Part shown: piece by piece, positions 5,428 to 20,500 of the stretch
Layout: each line of letters starts with the position of its first letter
Position numbering within the stretch: the first letter of the stretch is position 1
Source: Janthinobacterium sp.
GTDB lineage: Bacteria; Pseudomonadota; Gammaproteobacteria; Burkholderiales; Chitinibacteraceae
Assembly (NCBI GenBank): GCA_025360045.1
Contig: JANYCY010000012.1
Span: forward strand, 1 to 38,790
Length of the DNA stretch: 38,790 nt
Direction of reading: 5' to 3'
Notes under the pieces: generated by a model
The model's database searches: none
What the model saw: the letters and a program-made list of their open reading frames with translations, nothing else
What the model was told of the DNA's origin: nothing
Program-made: the position numbers and the translations under genes

Positions 5428-6884
5428 TACATAGGTACAGTAAGTGATGAAGTAACGGCTTGCGAAAGCACGGACATCAGACGATCAGGCATCAAACCCA
5501 TCACCAGTAACAAGATACAGTTAACTGAAAGCACTAACTTGGTATCAAAGCCTGCGGCAATCGGTGCAGTGTCTGTGGCTTCATCGAAGTACATGATCTT
5601 CACAATACGTAGGTAATAAAACGCACCCACCAGTGAGAACATCACCGCAATTACTGCCAACCAGATATAGCCTAAATTCACCACAGCTTGTAATACCGAC
5701 AATTTGGCAAAGAAGCCAACAAAGACCGGAATACCTGCCATAGAGAACATCACAAACATCATCATGCAGGCAAACCATGGGCTACGCGCTGCTAAGCCTT
5801 TGAAGTCATCAATTTTATCGGCTTCAAAGCCTTCACGGGACAGTAACATCACCATACCGAAACCGGCTGCGGCAGTCAGTACATAAACCATGGCGTAGAA
5901 AAACGATGCGGCGTAACCAATTGGGCTAGCGACCAAAATCCCTAAGAGCAAGAAGCCCATATGCGAGATCGTGGAGTAAGCCATCATGCGTTTCATACTG
6001 GTTTGAGCGATCGCAGTCAGATTCCCAATACCCATCGAGAGTACCGACAACACCACCAACATACCGCGCCAATCAAAGGCGTAGCCTTCCATGCCTTGCG
6101 CCAACAAGCGAATCACAAATACAAAGGCCGCTAACTTAGGAGCAGAACCAATCAGTTGAGTCACTGGCGTTGGTGCGCCTTCGTAAACATCCGGCACCCA
6201 CATATGGAACGGTACAGCACCTAACTTAAAGCCAATACCGGTTACCAAGAACACCAAGCCAAAGGCCGCTAACATGCGATTTGCTTCGCCGCTGGCAATC
6301 TTATGTGCAATCACAAAGATATCGAGCGAGGCAGTTGCGCCGTAAATCATCGACATCCCGTAAAGCAGCATCCCCGAAGCCAAAGCCCCAAGAATAAAAT
6401 ACTTCATGGCAGCTTCAGTGGATTGCACTGAATCACGCTGCAATGCCACCAAGGCGTACAAGGACAACGATAGCAACTCAAGGCCCATATACAGCGTTAA
6501 GAAATTAACACTAGAGGCCATGATCATCATGCCTGCTAAGGCAAACAACGTCAGTGTGAACAACTCGCCACGGAACAAACCGCGAACCATACTGTATTCA
6601 CGACCATAAATCAGCACCAGTGCCACACCTAAGATCATACCCATCTTGGCGAAATCAGCGATTGGGTCACTAATAAACAAGCCATTAAAGGCCAGACGTG
6701 GTGAGGGCTGATAGCCATTCACAACAAGGAAAGCCGTTATGGCTAACACAATCAATGTCAGCACATAAGTAATGTGGCGCTTGGCATCACTGACAAACAG
6801 ATCAATTAGAAGTACCGCACAGCTGGCACATAGCAGGAAGATTTCCGGCATTGCCACCCAAGCATTAAGGCTGGTCCAGGTCAT
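5427..6884 (-). CDS. nuoN: NADH-quinone oxidoreductase subunit N
   Basis: This 485-residue polytopic membrane protein is one of the three antiporter-like proton-pumping subunits of complex I. About 14 hydrophobic segments are visible, with the family's conserved lysine and His-bearing half-helices, for example GFKLGAVPFHMWVPDVYEGAPT around residues 218-240 and the MKRMMAYSTISHMGFLLLG stretch around 285-305. Length fits NuoN of other Betaproteobacteria. It is the last nuo gene, 97 bp after nuoM, and that gap contains a 9-bp-stem hairpin (6946-6971). The stop overlaps the DUF2818 start. Confidence 0.97.
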   Translation of the reverse strand: MTWTSLNAWVAMPEIFLLCASCAVLLIDLFVSDAKRHITYVLTLIVLAITAFLVVNGYQPSPRLAFNGLFISDPIADFAKMGMILGVALVLIYGREYSMVRGLFRGELFTLTLFALAGMMIMASSVNFLTLYMGLELLSLSLYALVALQRDSVQSTEAAMKYFILGALASGMLLYGMSMIYGATASLDIFVIAHKIASGEANRMLAAFGLVFLVTGIGFKLGAVPFHMWVPDVYEGAPTPVTQLIGSAPKLAAFVFVIRLLAQGMEGYAFDWRGMLVVLSVLSMGIGNLTAIAQTSMKRMMAYSTISHMGFLLLGILVASPIGYAASFFYAMVYVLTAAAGFGMVMLLSREGFEADKIDDFKGLAARSPWFACMMMFVMFSMAGIPVFVGFFAKLSVLQAVVNLGYIWLAVIAVMFSLVGAFYYLRIVKIMYFDEATDTAPIAAGFDTKLVLSVNCILLLVMGLMPDRLMSVLSQAVTSSLTVPM

Positions 6885-6981: not shown

Positions 6982-8481
6982 TCAGTGCAATTTGCTTTGT
7001 GAAACATGCCAGATCAAATCATTAACCGACACATGCATCACATCCACAAATGGCTTCGGATACAGACCCATGCCCAGCACGGCAACGGCTAACACAGCAA
7101 GGATCAGGAATTCACGCGAGTTAACGTCTTTCAGATGCTCAACATGATCATTGGCGACCTCACCGAATAACACCCGTTTGTACATCCACAGGGTATACGC
7201 TGCACCAAAGATCAAGGTCGTAGCACCGGCAAAGGCGTACCAGAAGTTCACTTGTACCGCCCCCAGAATCACCATAAATTCACCGGCAAAACCAGAAGTA
7301 CCAGGCAAACCCGAATTGGCCATCGCAAACAACATCATAAAGCTAGCGAAGATCGGCATTTTATTAGCCACGCCGCCGTAATCGGCAATCTTGCGGCTAT
7401 GCACTCGGTCGTACATCACACCGATACAGAAGAACATCGCGGCAGAAACAAAGCCGTGCGAGATCATTTGCAGCAATGCACCTTCAACCGCGTACTGGTT
7501 CATTTGTGTGCCACCGGCAAACATAAAGAAGCCCAGTGTGACAAAACCCATATGCGAGATCGAAGAATAAGCTACCAGCTTTTTCATATCGGTTTGTACA
7601 AGCGCCACTAAACCGATGTAAATCACCGCTACCAAGGACAGCGCCACAAATACCCATGCATATTCACGCGCGGCATCAGGGGCAATCGGCAGAGCAAATC
7701 GCAAGAAGCCGTATGCACCCAGCTTCAGGGTAATCGCCGCCAACACCATCGAACCACCGGTAGGCGCTTCAACGTGGGCATCTGGCAACCATGTGTGAAC
7801 GGGCCACATCGGCACTTTCACGGCAAAGGCAAAGAAGAAGGCAATCAGCAGATACGTTTGTGCTGACATATCAAGCGGCAAACGCTGGAAATCAGCAATT
7901 TCAAAACTACCGCCGGTTTTTTGATACAGGTAGATAAAGCCAACCAGCGTCAACAAAGAACCGAGCAAGGTGTACAAGAAAAACTTAATCGACGCATACA
8001 CACGGCGTGGACCGCCCCATATACCAATAATCAAATACATTGGGATCAGCATGGCTTCAAAGAATACATAGAACAAGATCGCATCCATGGCGGCAAATGC
8101 ACCATTGATCAAGCCCGACATAATCAGGAAAGCGGCCATATATTGCGCGGTACGCTTTTCAATAACTTGCCAACCCGCGAGGATAACCATCAGGGTAACA
8201 AAGCTATTTAAAATCACAAACAGCATCGAAATGCCATCAACCCCAAGATGGTAGTTGATATTAAAAGAAGCGATCCAAGGCTTCATTTCTTCGAACTGCA
8301 TGCCGCCATGCAAAGACTCAAACTGCGTAAAGAGCGGTATGGTTACCAAGAAACTTAGCAAAGCGCCGACCAGCGCCAACCAGCGCGCCGCCGTGGCGTT
8401 TTTGTCCCCGCCTGTCGCGAGTACTACAAGGCCCGCCACGATCGGCAGCCAGATCGCGAGGCTTAGAAGATTACCCGTCAT
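6982..8481 (-). CDS. nuoM: NADH-quinone oxidoreductase subunit M
   Basis: This 499-residue antiporter-like membrane subunit of complex I has about 14 hydrophobic segments. Conserved features include the KVPMWPVHTWLPDAHVEAPT stretch around residue 220-240 (Lys and His of the proton channel) and MKKLVAYSSISHMGFVTLG around 300-320. I start at ATG 8481 (MTGNLL), which has AGG six bases upstream, instead of the TTG six bases earlier. It lies 85 bp after nuoL; this gap carries a C-rich inverted repeat and a small CCGGC/GCCGG hairpin. Confidence 0.97.
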   Translation of the reverse strand: MTGNLLSLAIWLPIVAGLVVLATGGDKNATAARWLALVGALLSFLVTIPLFTQFESLHGGMQFEEMKPWIASFNINYHLGVDGISMLFVILNSFVTLMVILAGWQVIEKRTAQYMAAFLIMSGLINGAFAAMDAILFYVFFEAMLIPMYLIIGIWGGPRRVYASIKFFLYTLLGSLLTLVGFIYLYQKTGGSFEIADFQRLPLDMSAQTYLLIAFFFAFAVKVPMWPVHTWLPDAHVEAPTGGSMVLAAITLKLGAYGFLRFALPIAPDAAREYAWVFVALSLVAVIYIGLVALVQTDMKKLVAYSSISHMGFVTLGFFMFAGGTQMNQYAVEGALLQMISHGFVSAAMFFCIGVMYDRVHSRKIADYGGVANKMPIFASFMMLFAMANSGLPGTSGFAGEFMVILGAVQVNFWYAFAGATTLIFGAAYTLWMYKRVLFGEVANDHVEHLKDVNSREFLILAVLAVAVLGMGLYPKPFVDVMHVSVNDLIWHVSQSKLH

Positions 8482-8566: not shown

Positions 8567-10606
8567 TTAGGCCAGCAGGCCAGCAATCCACCATGTCATC
8601 AAACCAATTGCTCCGATAATCATGGCAAAAGCGTAATGGTAGATATAACCCGTTTGCAATTTACGCGCCGTTGCTGAAATCAAGCCAACCAGCTTAGCCG
8701 TACCATTGACGAGTAAACCATCGATGATAAAAGTGTCACCGACTTTCCAAAACAGCGTACCAAGAACACGGCCACCTGCTGCAAAACCATTGATATACAG
8801 GTGATCCATGTAGTACTTCTCATCCAGCAATTTCTTGATGCCAATTGAGGTAAAGAAGCGATCCAGTGCCGCAGGGATACTTGGCTTCACTAAATAGAAG
8901 TACCAAGACATCACTACACCCGCTAGGGCTAGCCAAAATGGCATGCTCATTAAGGAATGAATACCCATTGCCGCTGCGCTATGGAACTCTTCTTTCAGCA
9001 CTTCCATCGCAGGATGTGCTTCGTGATTAACCGTAATCACACCCTTGAAGAAATCACCGTAGAGCATAGGCTCGATGGCAAAGTAACCAATCGCCAAAGA
9101 TGGAATCGCCAACATCACCAACGGCAAAGTCACAACCCAAGGTGTTTCATGAGGTTTGTGGCCAGGAGCCAAGCCATGATGATCATCATGGCCATGATCA
9201 TCCGCGTGAGCCGCATCATGACCATGATCGTGCGCTTTACCGAAACGCTCTTCACCGTGGAATACCAAGAAGTACATACGGAAAGAATAGAAAGCCGTTA
9301 CAAATACGCCCGCCACTACAGCGAAGTATGCAAAGCCCGCACCCGGCAGATTAGATGCAGCAACCGCTTCAATAATCGAATCTTTAGAATAAAAACCCGA
9401 TAAGAACGGCGTGCCGATCAATGCCAAGGAGCCAATCAAAGAAGTAATCCAGGTAATCGGCATGTATTTACGCAAGCCACCCATCCTGCGGATGTCTTGA
9501 TCGTGATGCATACCAATAATCACTGAACCTGCAGCAAGGAATAACAACGCTTTAAAGAAGGCGTGAGTCATCAAGTGGAATACCGCCACCGAGTAAGCCG
9601 ATGCACCTAAGGCAACCGTCATATAACCCAGCTGTGACAATGTTGAATAAGCCACTACGCGCTTGATATCGTTTTGGATAATCCCAAGGAAACCCATAAA
9701 CAGCGCAGTGATCGAGCCAATCACCATCACAAAATTCAGCGCAGTATCTGATAGCTCAAATAATGGCGACATGCGCGCCACCATAAAGATACCTGCCGTC
9801 ACCATCGTTGCTGCGTGAATCAGCGCGGAAATCGGTGTTGGGCCTTCCATCGAATCAGGCAACCAAACATGTAGCGGGAACTGAGCCGATTTACCCATCG
9901 CGCCGATAAACAGCAAGATGCAAGTCACTGACATCAAGGACCAAGTCACATTCGGGAACAAGCTAATGGTGGCGTCTTTCAGCTCAGGCGCTTTGGCAAA
10001 TACATCGACGTAATCGAGCGAGCCAAAGTAAGCCAGTACCAAGCCAATCCCGAGTAGGAAACCAAAGTCACCCACGCGGTTGATCAAGAAAGCCTTCATA
10101 TTGGCGAAAGTTGCCGTTGGCTTTTTGAACCAGAAACCGATCAAGAGGTAAGAAACTAAACCCACCGCTTCCCAACCGAAGAAGAGCTGAACGAAGTTAT
10201 TCGCCATCACCAGCATCAACATCGAGAAGGTAAACAGCGAGATATAACTAAAGAAACGCTGATAGCCTGGGTCTTCTGACATATAACCGATGGTATAGAT
10301 ATGCACCATCAAGGATACAAAAGTCACCACACACATCATCATTGCGGTGAGCTTATCAACCAAGAAACCAACGTTAAAATCGACGCCATTAACAGTCAGC
10401 CAAGTGTAAACCGTACCGTTAAAGTTATCGCCACCTGAAACCAAGTGGTTCAGCGTATAGGCTGACAGCAAGAAGGAAACCGCCACACCACCGATCGTCA
10501 CAACGTGCGATGCACGTCGCCCAATCGCCCAGCCAAACAGCCCTGCGACTAGCGCGCCAAACAAGGGCGCCAGCGGGATTAAGAGATAAATCGTTTTCAT
10601 ATCCAT
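8567..10606 (-). CDS. nuoL: NADH-quinone oxidoreductase subunit L
   Basis: At 679 residues this is the largest membrane subunit of complex I, the distal proton pump, whose C-terminal lateral helix braces NuoM and NuoN. Typical motifs are SAQFPLHVWLPDSMEGPTPISALIHAATM (about 240-268) and the KRVVAYSTLSQLGYM stretch. Residues 455-485 form a very His/Asp-rich loop (HDHGHDAAHADDHGHDDHHG), probably cytoplasm- or periplasm-exposed and possibly metal-binding. The start ATG 10606 has GGGGA 11 nt upstream. The 170-bp gap before it contains a decayed duplicate of the nuoK end and the nuoL start (see 10560-10840). Confidence 0.97.
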   Translation of the reverse strand: MDMKTIYLLIPLAPLFGALVAGLFGWAIGRRASHVVTIGGVAVSFLLSAYTLNHLVSGGDNFNGTVYTWLTVNGVDFNVGFLVDKLTAMMMCVVTFVSLMVHIYTIGYMSEDPGYQRFFSYISLFTFSMLMLVMANNFVQLFFGWEAVGLVSYLLIGFWFKKPTATFANMKAFLINRVGDFGFLLGIGLVLAYFGSLDYVDVFAKAPELKDATISLFPNVTWSLMSVTCILLFIGAMGKSAQFPLHVWLPDSMEGPTPISALIHAATMVTAGIFMVARMSPLFELSDTALNFVMVIGSITALFMGFLGIIQNDIKRVVAYSTLSQLGYMTVALGASAYSVAVFHLMTHAFFKALLFLAAGSVIIGMHHDQDIRRMGGLRKYMPITWITSLIGSLALIGTPFLSGFYSKDSIIEAVAASNLPGAGFAYFAVVAGVFVTAFYSFRMYFLVFHGEERFGKAHDHGHDAAHADDHGHDDHHGLAPGHKPHETPWVVTLPLVMLAIPSLAIGYFAIEPMLYGDFFKGVITVNHEAHPAMEVLKEEFHSAAAMGIHSLMSMPFWLALAGVVMSWYFYLVKPSIPAALDRFFTSIGIKKLLDEKYYMDHLYINGFAAGGRVLGTLFWKVGDTFIIDGLLVNGTAKLVGLISATARKLQTGYIYHYAFAMIIGAIGLMTWWIAGLLA

Positions 10607-15720: not shown

Positions 15721-17010
15721 TCAAACCCAAGCCTGCAGAGCAGTCTTGTGTTCGATCAGGTATTCAAATTCGCTACGGAAGTGTTTAAGCATTCCGCGCA
15801 CCGGGAAAACAGCTGCGTCGCCGAGGGCACAAATGGTTCGCCCTGCGATGTTATTACCGACACTGTCTAAGAGCTCCAAGTCTTCCGGAACGCCATGACC
15901 CTGTGCGATACGATGAACAATGCGATACAGCCAGCCGGTGCCTTCACGACACGGCGTACATTGGCCACACGATTCTTCGAAGTAGAAGTAAGACAAACGC
16001 TCTAGCGCTTGCACCATATTGACGGTTTCGTCCATCACAATCACCGCACCCGACCCCAACATCGAGCCCGCTTTTGCGATCGAATCGTAGTCCATGGTGC
16101 ATTGCATCATGATGTCAGCAGGCAATACTGGAGAAGATGATCCACCAGGAATAACCGCCTTCAGTTTTTTGCCATCACGCATACCGCCGCATAATTCCAG
16201 CAGTTCCGAAAACGGCATGCCGAGCGGTACTTCGTAATTTCCAGGGCGATTGACATGACCAGAAACCGAAAATAACTTGGTACCACCGTTATTAGGTTTA
16301 CCTAGCTCAAGGAATTTCTGCCCGCCTTCGCGGATAATGTAGGGTACGGAGGCAAACGTCTCCGTATTATTAATTGTGGTTGGCTTGCCGTAGAGGCCAT
16401 AGCTCGCTGGGAAAGGTGGCTTAAAGCGAGGTTGGCCTTTTTTGCCTTCCAAGGATTCAAGCAGCGCCGTTTCTTCGCCGCAAATATAAGCACCGTAGCC
16501 ATGATGCGCATGCAGCTCAAAGCTAAATTCTGAACCCAGAATTTTATCGCCTAAAAAGCCTGCCTTGCGTGCTTCTTCAAGTGCTTCTTCGAAACGCTCG
16601 TAAGCTTCAAACACTTCACCGTGGATATAGTTGTAACCCACGGTAATGCCCATCGCGTAAGCACCAATAATCATGCCTTCGATCAGCGCATGTGGATTAG
16701 ACACAATAATGTCTAAATCCTTAAAGGTGCCCGGCTCGCCCTCATCGGTATTACAAACGAGGTATTTTTGCCCAGGGAAGCTACGTGGCATAAATGACCA
16801 CTTCAAGCCGGTAGGGAAGCCCGCACCGCCACGGCCACGCAGGCCGGAAGTTTTCATTTGCGCAATGATTTCATCTTGAGTGATATTTTCACTCAGGATT
16901 TTTTTGAGTGCATCATAGCCACCACGCTTAACGTATTCGTTAATGCGCCAGCAGTTAGGATCTTCAAAATTGACGTCATCAAATACAACGCCGGTTGTGT
17001 AGACGGTCAT
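15721..17010 (-). CDS. nuoF: NADH-quinone oxidoreductase subunit F (NADH/FMN-binding)
   Basis: This 429-residue subunit oxidises NADH. The glycine-rich nucleotide site GRGGAGF is at residues 59-65, and [12 protein letters not shown] around residue 92-103 belongs to the FMN/NADH pocket. Cluster N3 ligands are Cys348, 351 and 354 ([11 protein letters not shown]) plus Cys394 (TICALGD). Length is normal. The start overlaps the nuoE stop (TAATG), so E and F are coupled, consistent with their forming one sub-module. nuoG follows after a short gap. Confidence 0.97.
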
Positions 17011-17483
17011 TATTCGAGCTCCGCCAGTTTCTTATCGATCGCCTCAGGCGTCATATGACTACACATGGAATGGTTGTTTACCAGCATCACTGGCGCATAA
17101 CCACAGGCTCCCATGCACTCCCCTTCCTTCAGCGTAAACTTACCATCGGCTGTGGTTTCATTAAAACCAATGCCCAGCTTTTGCTTAATGTAATGCGCCG
17201 CAGTATAGCCGCCCGAAAGAGCACAGGGCAGATTGGTACACACAGTGATTTTGTGCGTACCGACGGGCTTTAAATCGTACATATTGTAGAAAGTAGCTAC
17301 TTCAAGCGCCATCATTGGCGCAATGCCAAGATAGTTAGCCACGAATTCGATCATGTCATTGCTAAGGTAGCGATGCTCGGTCTGCGCAATACGCAGCGCG
17401 CCCATCACGGCAGAGCGCTTGTGCTCTGCTGGGTACTTTGCTACTTCATGATCAATCAATGCTAGGGATTGAGTAGTTAACAT
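17010..17483 (-). CDS. nuoE: NADH-quinone oxidoreductase subunit E
   Basis: This 157-residue thioredoxin-fold [2Fe-2S] protein pairs with NuoF. Ligands of cluster N1a are Cys82 and Cys87 (CTNLPC) and Cys123 and Cys127 (CMGAC), with the expected 35-residue spacing. The N-terminal helical part (about 1-70) includes [15 protein letters not shown], strongly conserved in the family. The start overlaps the nuoD stop (TGATG) and its own stop overlaps the nuoF start, so D, E and F are linked translationally. Confidence 0.97.
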
Positions 17484-18739
17484 CAGCGATCAATCTCCCC
17501 AAATACAACGTCTTGAGTGCCGATAATGGCCACCACATCGGACAACATATGGCCACGCGCCATTTCATCTAAGGATGCTAAGTGGGCAAAACCCGGTGCA
17601 CGAATTTTCATTCGGTACGGTTTATTTGCGCCATCGGACACCATATAGATACCAAACTCACCCTTAGGATGTTCAATAGCGGCGTAAGCTTCGCCCTCTG
17701 GAACGTGCATCCCTTCGGTAAACAGTTTGAAGTGGTGAATCAGCTCTTCCATATTGGCTTTCATGCCACCACGTGAAGGAGATGCCACTTTATGATTGTC
17801 CACAATCACAGGACCCGGATTGGCTTTAAGCCATGCCACACACTGCTTGATAATGCGGTTGGACTGGCGCATTTCTTCAACGCGAACCAGATAGCGATCA
17901 TAACAATCACCATTAGTGCCCACTGGAATATCAAAGTCCATTGCACCGTAAACTTCATACGGCTGTTTCTTACGTAAATCCCACTCAATACCTGAGCCAC
18001 GCAGCATAGGGCCAGTCAGCCCCAGAGCCAGAGCGCGTTCAGGCGTGATAATGCCAATGCCAACGGTACGTTGCTTCCAGATACGGTTATCTGTCAGCAG
18101 GGTTTCGTACTCGTCAACATAGGTTGGGAAGCGCTGGGTGAAGTCTTCGATAAAATCGAGCAAAGAGCCTTCACGGTTGCCATTTAATTTTTTGATCGCA
18201 GCGGCGTTACGTACCTTAGAAGCTTGGTACTGCGGCATTTGATCAGGTAGATCACGGTAAACACCACCCGGGCGATAATAAGCCGCGTGCATACGTGCCC
18301 CTGACACTGCTTCATAGCAGTCCATTAGGTCTTCACGTTCACGGAAGGCATACAAGAAGATGGTCATCGCGCCACAGTCAATACCGTGCGCACCAATCCA
18401 CATCAGGTGATTCAGGATACGGGTGATTTCATCGAACATCACACGGATATACTGGGCACGCAGCGGCACTTCAATGCCAGTCATTTTTTCAATCGCCATG
18501 CAGTAAGCATGCTCATTGCACATCATCGACACATAGTCGAGACGGTCCATATAAGGCAGCGATTGAATATAGGTTTTTGATTCAGCTAATTTTTCAGTAC
18601 CACGGTGCAAAAGCCCGATATGCGGGTCTGCCCGTTCAACCACTTCACCATCAAGCTCTAGCACGAGGCGAAGCACACCATGTGCTGCGGGGTGTTGTGG
18701 TCCGAAGTTAAGCGTGTAGTTGCGGATTTCAGCAGCCAC
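17483..18739 (-). CDS. nuoD: NADH-quinone oxidoreductase subunit D (49 kDa)
   Basis: This 418-residue peripheral subunit forms much of the quinone site with NuoB. Conserved stretches are [22 protein letters not shown] near the N-terminus, [12 protein letters not shown], and [10 protein letters not shown]. The start is GTG 18739, with AGGAG nine bases upstream and family-standard N-terminus (V/M)[20 protein letters not shown]. An in-frame ATG at 18799 lies inside the duplicated junction and would add 20 residues unlike the family, so I reject it. The GTG lies inside the stop region of the mini-ORF upstream (GTGGCTGCTGA), the same overlap that nuoC makes with the mini-ORF. Confidence 0.96.
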
Positions 18740-18878
18740 CGTAGTTCTCCTCGCGGATAGTATGGCTGTGTGTTGGACACGCCAGAGATGCACCGCCAAA
18801 ATACTGCGGACAGAGATTGAGCGTGTAGTTACGGATTTCAGCAGCCACCGTAGTTCTCCTCGCGGATGATACGCGGTG
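18661..18878 (-). repeat. Tandem duplication of the nuoC/nuoD junction (period 109 bp)
   Basis: The segments 18711-18758 and 18820-18867 are identical at 47 of 48 positions. They contain the end of nuoC, a Shine-Dalgarno AGGAG and the GTG start of nuoD. Outside this core the copies diverge quickly. The left copy holds the true nuoD start; the right copy holds the true nuoC stop (18838-18840). The sharply conserved core with decayed flanks suggests either selection on the initiation region or recent homogenisation. Confidence 0.92.
18729..18848 (-). CDS. Hybrid mini-ORF (NuoD-like start, NuoC-like end)
   Basis: This 39-codon frame starts at GTG 18848, overlapping the nuoC stop, and ends at TGA 18729-18731, overlapping the nuoD GTG. 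Residues 1-11 ([11 protein letters not shown]) equal the NuoD start; the last nine (IREENYGGC) equal the NuoC end; the middle ([19 protein letters not shown]) matches neither well. AGGAG precedes its start exactly as at nuoD. Ribosomes leaving nuoC would meet this cistron first and reach nuoD only after it. Translation is inferred, not shown. Confidence 0.45.
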
Positions 18879-19446
18879 TTGTTTCTCGCGGATCGATAGT
18901 GACAGGCTGGTAGATAACACGACCCTGTTCCGGGTCGTAACGCATTTCTACATAGCCAGAAAGCGGAAAATCCTTACGGAAAGGATGACCAACAAAACCG
19001 TAATCGGTCAGGATACGACGTAAATCAGGGTGACCTTGGAACATGATCCCGAACAGATCGAACGCTTCACGCTCAAACCAGTTTAGACCTGGCCAAACTG
19101 ATACAACGGACGGCACAACAGGGAAATCATCATCAGTACAGAACACCCGCACACGTAAGCGCACATTGTGTTTGTAAGAGAGAAAATGGTACACCGCAGC
19201 AAAACGATGGCCTTCCCATACCGCATCTTTGTAAGTGCTGTAATCAAGACCACAGACATCAAGACAGGATTCAAAATGCAATGCTTCATGATCTCGCAAA
19301 GCAAGAGCGACTTCAGACCATGCCGCAGCGGGTACTTCGATAGTGACTTCATCCAGAGCACAGACTAGCTTGGCAAGGTTTGCGCCACCTATCTCACCCA
19401 GAACGGCCTTCAGGCTGTCCATCAGGACGCTAAGTTTACGATCCAC
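18838..19446 (-). CDS. nuoC: NADH-quinone oxidoreductase subunit C (30 kDa)
   Basis: This 202-residue peripheral-arm subunit packs against NuoD and NuoI; here it is separate from NuoD, unlike the fused NuoCD of enterics. The family signature ERE(A/E)[18 protein letters not shown] is seen around residues 128-148, followed by [20 protein letters not shown]. The start is GTG 19446 with GAGAGGG upstream; an ATG eight codons further in has no good ribosome site. It overlaps the end of nuoB. The C-terminus [10 protein letters not shown] is duplicated downstream. Confidence 0.95.
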
Positions 19447-19966
19447 TGTTTACCCTCTCACTCGCCAATACACCTGATCGCGCAATAGTGTTAGTACGCT
19501 TAATCTTATTCTGTAGCTGAATAATGCCGTAAAGCAAAGCTTCAGCCGTCGGCGGACAGCCCGGCACATAGATATCAACCGGCACAATGCGATCACAACC
19601 ACGTACCACAGAGTAGGAATAATGGTAGTAGCCACCACCATTGGCACAGGACCCCATCGAGATCACCCAACGCGGCTCTGGCATTTGGTCATAGACCTTA
19701 CGCAGCGCTGGCGCCATCTTATTGCAGAGCGTCCCCGCAACAATCATCAAGTCAGATTGTCGTGGGCTTGGGCGAAAAACGATACCGAAACGATCCAAGT
19801 CATAGCGCGCCGCGCCAGCATGCATCATTTCTACCGCACAACAGGCCAAACCAAAGGTCATTGGCCATAAAGAACCGGTGCGGGTCCAGTTGATCACGGT
19901 ATCCAGTGAGGTGGTAACAAAGCCCTTATCTGCAGACTGAACACTTGCTAAGGATTGAGCATCCAT
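19436..19966 (-). CDS. nuoB: NADH-quinone oxidoreductase subunit B (PSST)
   Basis: This 176-residue subunit holds cluster N2, the last carrier before quinone. The tandem Cys42-Cys43 ([11 protein letters not shown]), the Cys of [10 protein letters not shown] and the Cys of [11 protein letters not shown] are the four ligands. The start chosen is ATG 19966 ([10 protein letters not shown]), preceded by GGGAG at good spacing; ATG 19981 would overlap the nuoA end and also remains possible. The N-terminal tail before GFVTTSLD is somewhat longer than usual. The stop lies inside the nuoC start. Confidence 0.95.
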
Positions 19967-19971
19967 ATTTA

Positions 19972-20340
19972 TTACTCCCATTCCAATGCGCCCTTCTTCC
20001 ACTCAAAGATAAAGCCCACAACCAGCACGGTCAGGAAAATCATCATTGCAAGGAAGCCGAACATGCCGAGCTCTTTAAGCACAACAGCCCATGGCACAAG
20101 GAAGGCCACTTCGAGATCGAACAAGATAAATAGGATAGCAACGAGGTAGTAACGCACATCAAACTGCATGCGCGCGTCTTCGAAAGCTTCGAAGCCACAC
20201 TCGTAAGGCGAGCGTTTTTCAGGATCAGGTCGATTGGTTCCGAGAATCTTGCCCACCCCCCAGCCAAGAACCAGCGGGGCAACGCCCACCAAGAGTCCTA
20301 CAGCCAGAAACATCAGGATGGGGAAATAGTTAGCGAGCAT
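19972..20340 (-). CDS. nuoA: NADH-quinone oxidoreductase subunit A
   Basis: This 122-residue membrane subunit has three transmembrane helices (about 5-28, 63-85, 92-115). The conserved loop [33 protein letters not shown] (about 45-77) is the Cys-bearing loop that moves near the quinone entry. It is the first gene of the nuo operon, with GGGGAG just before ATG 20340. Upstream are 75 bp and then tRNA-Leu on the same strand with no clear terminator between, so the operon may be co-transcribed with secG and the tRNA. Confidence 0.97.
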
Positions 20341-20415
20341 GGCACTCCCCAGATTTGAAGGTTAAGGATATTTTTATATGTTGTATTCGCCCACATTGCG
20401 CGGGCGTTTTGATTC

Positions 20416-20500
20416 TGGTGCCGACAGAGAGACTCGAACTCTCACAACCGAAGTCACTACCCCCTCAAGATAGCGTGTCTACCAATTTCACCATGTCGGC
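20416..20500 (-). tRNA. tRNA-Leu, anticodon GAG
   Basis: On the minus strand the 85-base sequence begins GCCGACA and ends TGTCGGCACCA, with a seven-pair acceptor stem and encoded CCA. The anticodon arm CTATC-TTGAGGG-GGTAG gives anticodon GAG (leucine CUC/CUU). The long variable arm expected for class II tRNA is present (AGTGACTTCGGTTGT region), and the T arm reads GAGAGTTCGAGTCTCTC. It lies between secG and nuoA, a conserved place in Betaproteobacteria. Confidence 0.95.

Follow-up and report, generated by a model that had tools for sequence, protein, structure and literature searches.

The window considered here, a stretch of 38,790 nucleotides from a Janthinobacterium sp. genome whose order is Neisseriales in NCBI taxonomy, carries the nuo operon on its minus strand, and the seam between nuoC and nuoD is present in it twice. 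Both genes are intact by their NCBIfam family models: nuoC (18838-19446) has 202 codons, a GTG start and a TGA stop at 18840-18838 (NF004730, 330 bits), and nuoD (17483-18739) has 418 codons and also starts with GTG (NF004739, 660 bits). The doubled part consists of two 48-base cores on the operon strand, an upstream copy at 18820-18867 that holds the native end of nuoC and a downstream copy at 18711-18758 that starts nuoD; they lie 109 bases apart from start to start and are identical at 47/48 positions, a match far beyond chance. The single difference is a CGT at 18831 in the upstream copy, which reads CGC at 18722 in the downstream copy. Each core comprises the nuoC end, a ribosome binding site, a GTG and nuoD-type codons, with a Shine-Dalgarno sequence GAGGAG 7 bases 5' of the GTG (18856-18861 and 18747-18752, respectively) and an 11-base stop/start overlap, GTGGCTGCTGA.

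The consequence is a hybrid mini-frame of 39 codons (18848-18729, minus strand) that begins like nuoD, ends like nuoC (IREENYGGC) and overlaps its neighbors by 11 bases at both ends, with the nuoC stop at 18838-18848 and with the nuoD start at 18729-18739; the open reading frame list gives the same frame opening at a more upstream GTG. The cores are separated by 61 bases of filler (18759-18819) that contain no in-frame stop, and the distance from nuoC to nuoD is +98 nt. The other seams of the operon are also tight, nuoB and nuoC overlapping by 11 bases, nuoD and nuoE as well as nuoE and nuoF by one base. The coordinates of the doubled cores, the existence of the mini-frame between the nuoC stop and the nuoD start, and the integrity of both genes are all as the initial annotation had described them.

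When the whole window was scanned for direct repeats (at least 24 bases, exact seeds of 14), only the seam pair and one other family came up. A 62-base stretch occurs in the window in three diverged copies (5953-6014, 7544-7605 and 9624-9685, 1591 and 2080 bases apart), which presumably belong to related antiporter subunits of complex I. In an RNA family search of the whole window at gathering scores, only a tRNA was found. A tRNA-Leu (GAG) lies at 20416-20500 on the operon strand, between nuoA and a frame that we take to be SecG-like.

The junction in related genomes

We compared the junction in the window's own genome and in 40 relatives, 24 of which belong to the same family. The genus is judged to be Iodobacter, from named contigs with the same seam. 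The junction is single in all 24 other family genomes, including all eight other genus members in the comparison; relative to 23 of these 24 genomes the window carries 109 extra bases, and relative to the remaining one (G018) 106. The junction could be read in 29 loci of relatives (L003-L031). In 21/22 family loci the two genes overlap by 11 bases and in one by 14, while the seven loci from elsewhere in the order gave nuoC-nuoD distances of -14, 104, 0, 129, 16, 4 and 36, values that are estimates and were partly extrapolated past the matched nuoC end. As far as these sequences tell, the tight overlap is characteristic of the family without being needed in every relative; its absence in some relatives of the order speaks against coupling being indispensable.

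In a wider sample of 399 genomes of the order, which excluded all eight genus mates and was searched for the exact seam motif, so that junctions written differently are missed, the motif was present in 66 genomes (own included), and a second copy on the same contig occurred in the window's genome alone; G026 also has two seam motifs, but on different contigs. The doubled seam is thus known from one genome, a draft of 97 contigs. The initial annotation had named absence in close relatives as one part of what would tell against its reading, and this is what the 8/8 other genus genomes show.

Allelic ancestry of the two cores and of nuoD

The one-base difference between the cores is a standing allele split among the genus relatives. 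The upstream core matches G002, G007 and G008 at 48/48 positions and the downstream core matches G001 and G004 at 48/48, while the seams of G003, G005 and G006 are 1 and 2 bases off the two core alleles; overall, the seam varies very little within the genus. The initial annotation had suggested selection on the start/stop coupling, or gene conversion, as the reason for the conserved core, and this part of its account does not hold up well. With each copy an unmutated standing allele of different relatives, selection or conversion on the core becomes unnecessary, and conversion would have erased the difference between them. A duplication of one resident sequence is disfavored since the copies carry different alleles; a simple tandem duplication would repeat the whole unit with the same ancestry, whereas here 48 of the 109 bases match closely and 15 more weakly. 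A tandem slippage duplication of the resident seam, old enough that the flanks decayed while the cores were held by coupling selection or gene conversion, could draw on the near-invariance of the seam and on a mini-frame that is open and in register. It has to contend with the two alleles, with the surviving core difference and with the absence of the doubling in all eight genus relatives; we consider it unlikely, and the filler flanks, discussed below, bear on it as well.

The 5' part of nuoD beside the downstream core has an ancestry like that of G004 and G001 (18722 to about 18431, minus strand); its upstream edge falls together with the downstream core, the far edge can be given only roughly, and mixed ancestry follows. 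At the sites that tell G004 from G007, the window agrees with G004 at 32/36 between 18701 and 18431, and at those that tell G004 from G008 it does so at 33/38 between 18710 and 18479, neither of which was reached in 5000 shuffles; against G003 the tract is shorter, with 22/23 sites (3/5000 shuffles). At the insert the affinity of the informative sites changes: 18831 goes with G007/G008, those from 18710/18701 downward with G004. For G004 against G002, the best tract lies elsewhere (20236-20020, 19/19 sites with G004, 5/5000 shuffles). These shuffles treat linked sites as independent, and the pairwise tests were chosen after a weak result from a test that demanded agreement of G007 and G008, which lost many of the sites that are informative near the junction and gave at best 6/6 sites (18536-18500; 361/10000 shuffles).

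Sliding identity gives a similar picture: nuoE-F is mostly closest to G007/G008 and nuoC to G002, G007 or G008 depending on the window of comparison, while 18748-18449 is closest to G004/G001. G001 is 100% identical in one such window, where about 150 bases of its contig are comparable. For several hundred bases past about 18431, nuoD resembles all compared relatives to about the same degree, with no clean return to a single recipient type. The contig of G001 (C124; L044/L045), the nearest of the donor-like relatives, covers only the first 239 bases of nuoD, and the far edge of the tract lies beyond this comparison. Mutations found only in the window's own genome are not clustered beside the insert (3880/5000 shuffles).

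That the tract edge and the insert coincide has to be weighed against the surroundings. In several places, among them 20236-20020, the nuo genes (15983-20400) combine stretches from different lineages of the genus, which recombines often, and because of this mosaicism one tract edge inside the seam is not very improbable by itself. We therefore regard the coincidence as supporting evidence for recombination at the seam, and not as proof.

Cores that belong to two alleles might also be expected from an assembly error, for instance if two co-sampled strains had been joined at the seam and the gap wrongly filled. Assemblers use words of around 48 bases, the length of the core, and a draft genome of this kind, with a contamination estimate of 1.15, lends the idea some color. 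However, the one-base difference keeps the cores from being a single assembler word, no N occurs in the filler, the frame relations are coherent, and the donor-like stretch covers only about 280 bases inside one contig, all of which make such an error quite improbable.

The filler and a proposed translational relay

The initial annotation had described a conserved core with diverged flanks. The core stands, but the flanks do not behave as simple diverged copies. The left filler flank has a weak similarity to nuoD (a gapped 31-base extension whose score is reached in 16/2000 shuffles), which would suit a slippage duplication, while the right flank shows no significant similarity to nuoC (350/2000 shuffles), which would not. 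Within the first part of the filler, some 16-31 bases long and weakly nuoD-like, the best likeness is to nuoD alleles of the G003/G005/G006 type (11/16 bases, ungapped), against 9/16 for the window's own nuoD and likewise for G004.

For the rest of the filler no source was found among 43 family genomes (own included, 18 of them beyond the junction comparison); matches at E up to 1 occur in 26 of these, and those outside the locus are all short, with E of 0.01 or weaker. Filler positions 18783-18803 match the 3' part of a gene in the same genome at 20/21 bases (E 0.01) and in the same reading frame (YFGGASL versus YFGGTSL); we take this gene to be secY, from the protein it encodes. In a control with 4461 bases of neighboring nuo sequence, three non-self matches were at least as strong, corresponding to about 0.04 expected per 66 bases, so that the match is compatible with chance and we treat copying from secY as a weak lead only. 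A third piece of the filler has a 19/20 match in G004 and in G008 (E 0.04), which in G004 falls in no clear gene frame; elsewhere in the window's own genome this piece recurs at a single site, with 3 mismatches over 19 bases. Searches of plasmids and phages gave no match to the filler, and an origin from a mobile element or phage was set aside on that basis; an exact 17-base piece that is present in 9 viral contigs is taken as chance. The idea of a new promoter in the insert was dropped: one promoter-like site was found there, on the opposite strand, against 0.4 expected.

Termination-reinitiation is the most plausible consequence of the hybrid mini-frame. The initial annotation had proposed that a ribosome finishing nuoC restarts on the mini-frame and then on nuoD, which might tune the NuoD:NuoC ratio; the stop/start overlaps at both ends of the mini-frame are there, and the relay itself can be put forward as a plausible outcome of this arrangement. 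Reporter work (PMC10666635) indicates that coupling is almost abolished by a gap in the region of 20 nt, while a review (PMC12548453) cites studies with a milder dependence on the gap. With 98 nt between nuoC and nuoD, it would make a difference that the mini-frame is open, provided that nuoD depends on coupling; structurally the relay is intact, and it plausibly keeps nuoD coupled.

Whether the relay was also selected is a separate matter. In a simulation with random filler of 31-91 bases, the relay was left intact in 17% of cases. An intact frame is thus weak evidence for selection, which is possible, and it does equally little for a slippage duplication.

One could propose that the extra seam lowers or times the synthesis of NuoD and was kept as a regulatory relay for that purpose. 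The anatomy for this is complete, and a filler heptamer, CAGCCAT (18762-18768), pairs with the nuoD start GTGGCTG (18733-18739, minus strand) in the predicted fold of 18781-18711, a pairing that would be opened by a ribosome translating the mini-frame. In a longer predicted fold (18850-18701), which is also the longest, the same heptamer instead pairs with the identical upstream start, and none of four predicted folds around the starts is significantly stronger than shuffled sequences (z of 0.25, -0.71, 0.38 and -1.34). Complex I needs equal numbers of NuoC and NuoD, which makes a lower level of NuoD hard to favor, and the arrangement is found in one genome only. We thus hold a selected regulatory role to be very unlikely. 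A more general form of the idea would see the coupling seam as a portable cassette, whose doubling by recombination adds a small cistron without uncoupling the neighbors and here tunes NuoD synthesis through the pairing of filler and nuoD start; this, too, we consider very unlikely.

A 48-base direct repeat at such a distance should be easily lost by slippage, which would restore the normal seam. That the doubled seam persists suggests either a recent event or little cost.

Origin of the doubled seam and its relation to known systems

We suggest that the doubling is a one-off recombination scar, left at the edge of a nuoD segment that was imported, and we give this reading a probability of roughly 60%. 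The recipient, whose seam was of the G002/G007/G008 type, would have had about 280 bases at the 5' end of its nuoD replaced by Iodobacter DNA of the G001/G004 type. At the far edge, the exchange was presumably an ordinary homologous one. The near edge would have fallen within the nuoC/nuoD seam, which hardly varies, and here the joining would have been imperfect, so that the recipient seam was kept and the donor seam added, leaving 61 bases between them made up of a short nuoD-like remnant and filler. The 39-codon relay frame would follow because the filler happens to be of the right length and free of in-frame stops, and each seam comes complete with ribosome binding site, GTG and overlapping stop. 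Ribosomes that finish nuoC could then reinitiate first on the mini-frame and, after it, on nuoD, and with NuoD still made at an adequate level the scar would be tolerated. The sequences show the doubled seam, its two allelic ancestries, the donor-like tract and the absence of the doubling in the relatives compared; we infer the order in which things happened, a homologous exchange at the far edge, the relay and the near-neutrality of the scar.

In itself, this is one scar in one genome, and the doubled seam is an unusual detail and not a new system. It may nevertheless serve as an example of how a small cistron can be born in a tight operon, where a doubled stop/start seam, given fitting spacing, yields a ribosome binding site and coupled ends together. 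It also illustrates that a repeat with an identical core and unlike flanks can reflect two alleles meeting at a recombination edge, and need not be a sign of selection.

Our literature search found no paper with both Iodobacter and nuoD, and none came up under the term short-patch illegitimate recombination or under most of a set of operon-duplication terms taken together; for duplication combined with gene overlap, the matches listed concerned only mitochondrial or eukaryotic genomes. A single paper combines nuoC, nuoD and translational coupling, and its subject is reportedly Campylobacter membrane complexes.

Among the known processes, homology-facilitated illegitimate recombination (PMC3240628) shares with our case, as we read it, a donor tract and an irregular edge on one side; in 14 clones that were sequenced, the same source found duplications 109 to 950 bp long, ascribed to single crossing-over with incoming DNA. 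That process deletes recipient DNA of similar size, whereas the window has a net insertion of 109 or 106 bases with intact genes and no deletion seen, and for this reason we do not class it as a member. The 3-10 bp microhomology usual at such joins has no counterpart that can be read here, as the illegitimate join cannot be located within a filler whose source was not found, and the far edge of the donor-like tract is placed only approximately.

In the leaders of bicistronic design, stop and start lie close together. These leaders, used in expression vectors, likewise place a short first cistron before a gene and drive its translation (PMC5995908); the present frame differs from them in being natural, lying within an operon and deriving from the flanking genes.

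Another known process is termination-reinitiation at overlapping genes, a form of translational coupling said to have been treated by Huber in 2019. The doubled junction has two of the marks of a coupled overlapping pair, namely a stop/start overlap and a Shine-Dalgarno sequence before the downstream start, and it shares these with the systems described in PMC10666635 and PMC12548453, as well as the fact that the genes encode subunits of a single complex. Brown and Wade 2025 (PMC12548453) have already discussed short frames whose only role is to deliver ribosomes to the next gene. What sets the present case apart is that the overlap is 11 bases and not the common 4 or 1, that coupling is predicted from the sequence, and that the coupling seam itself is doubled, with a relay frame made from the end and the start of its own neighbors.
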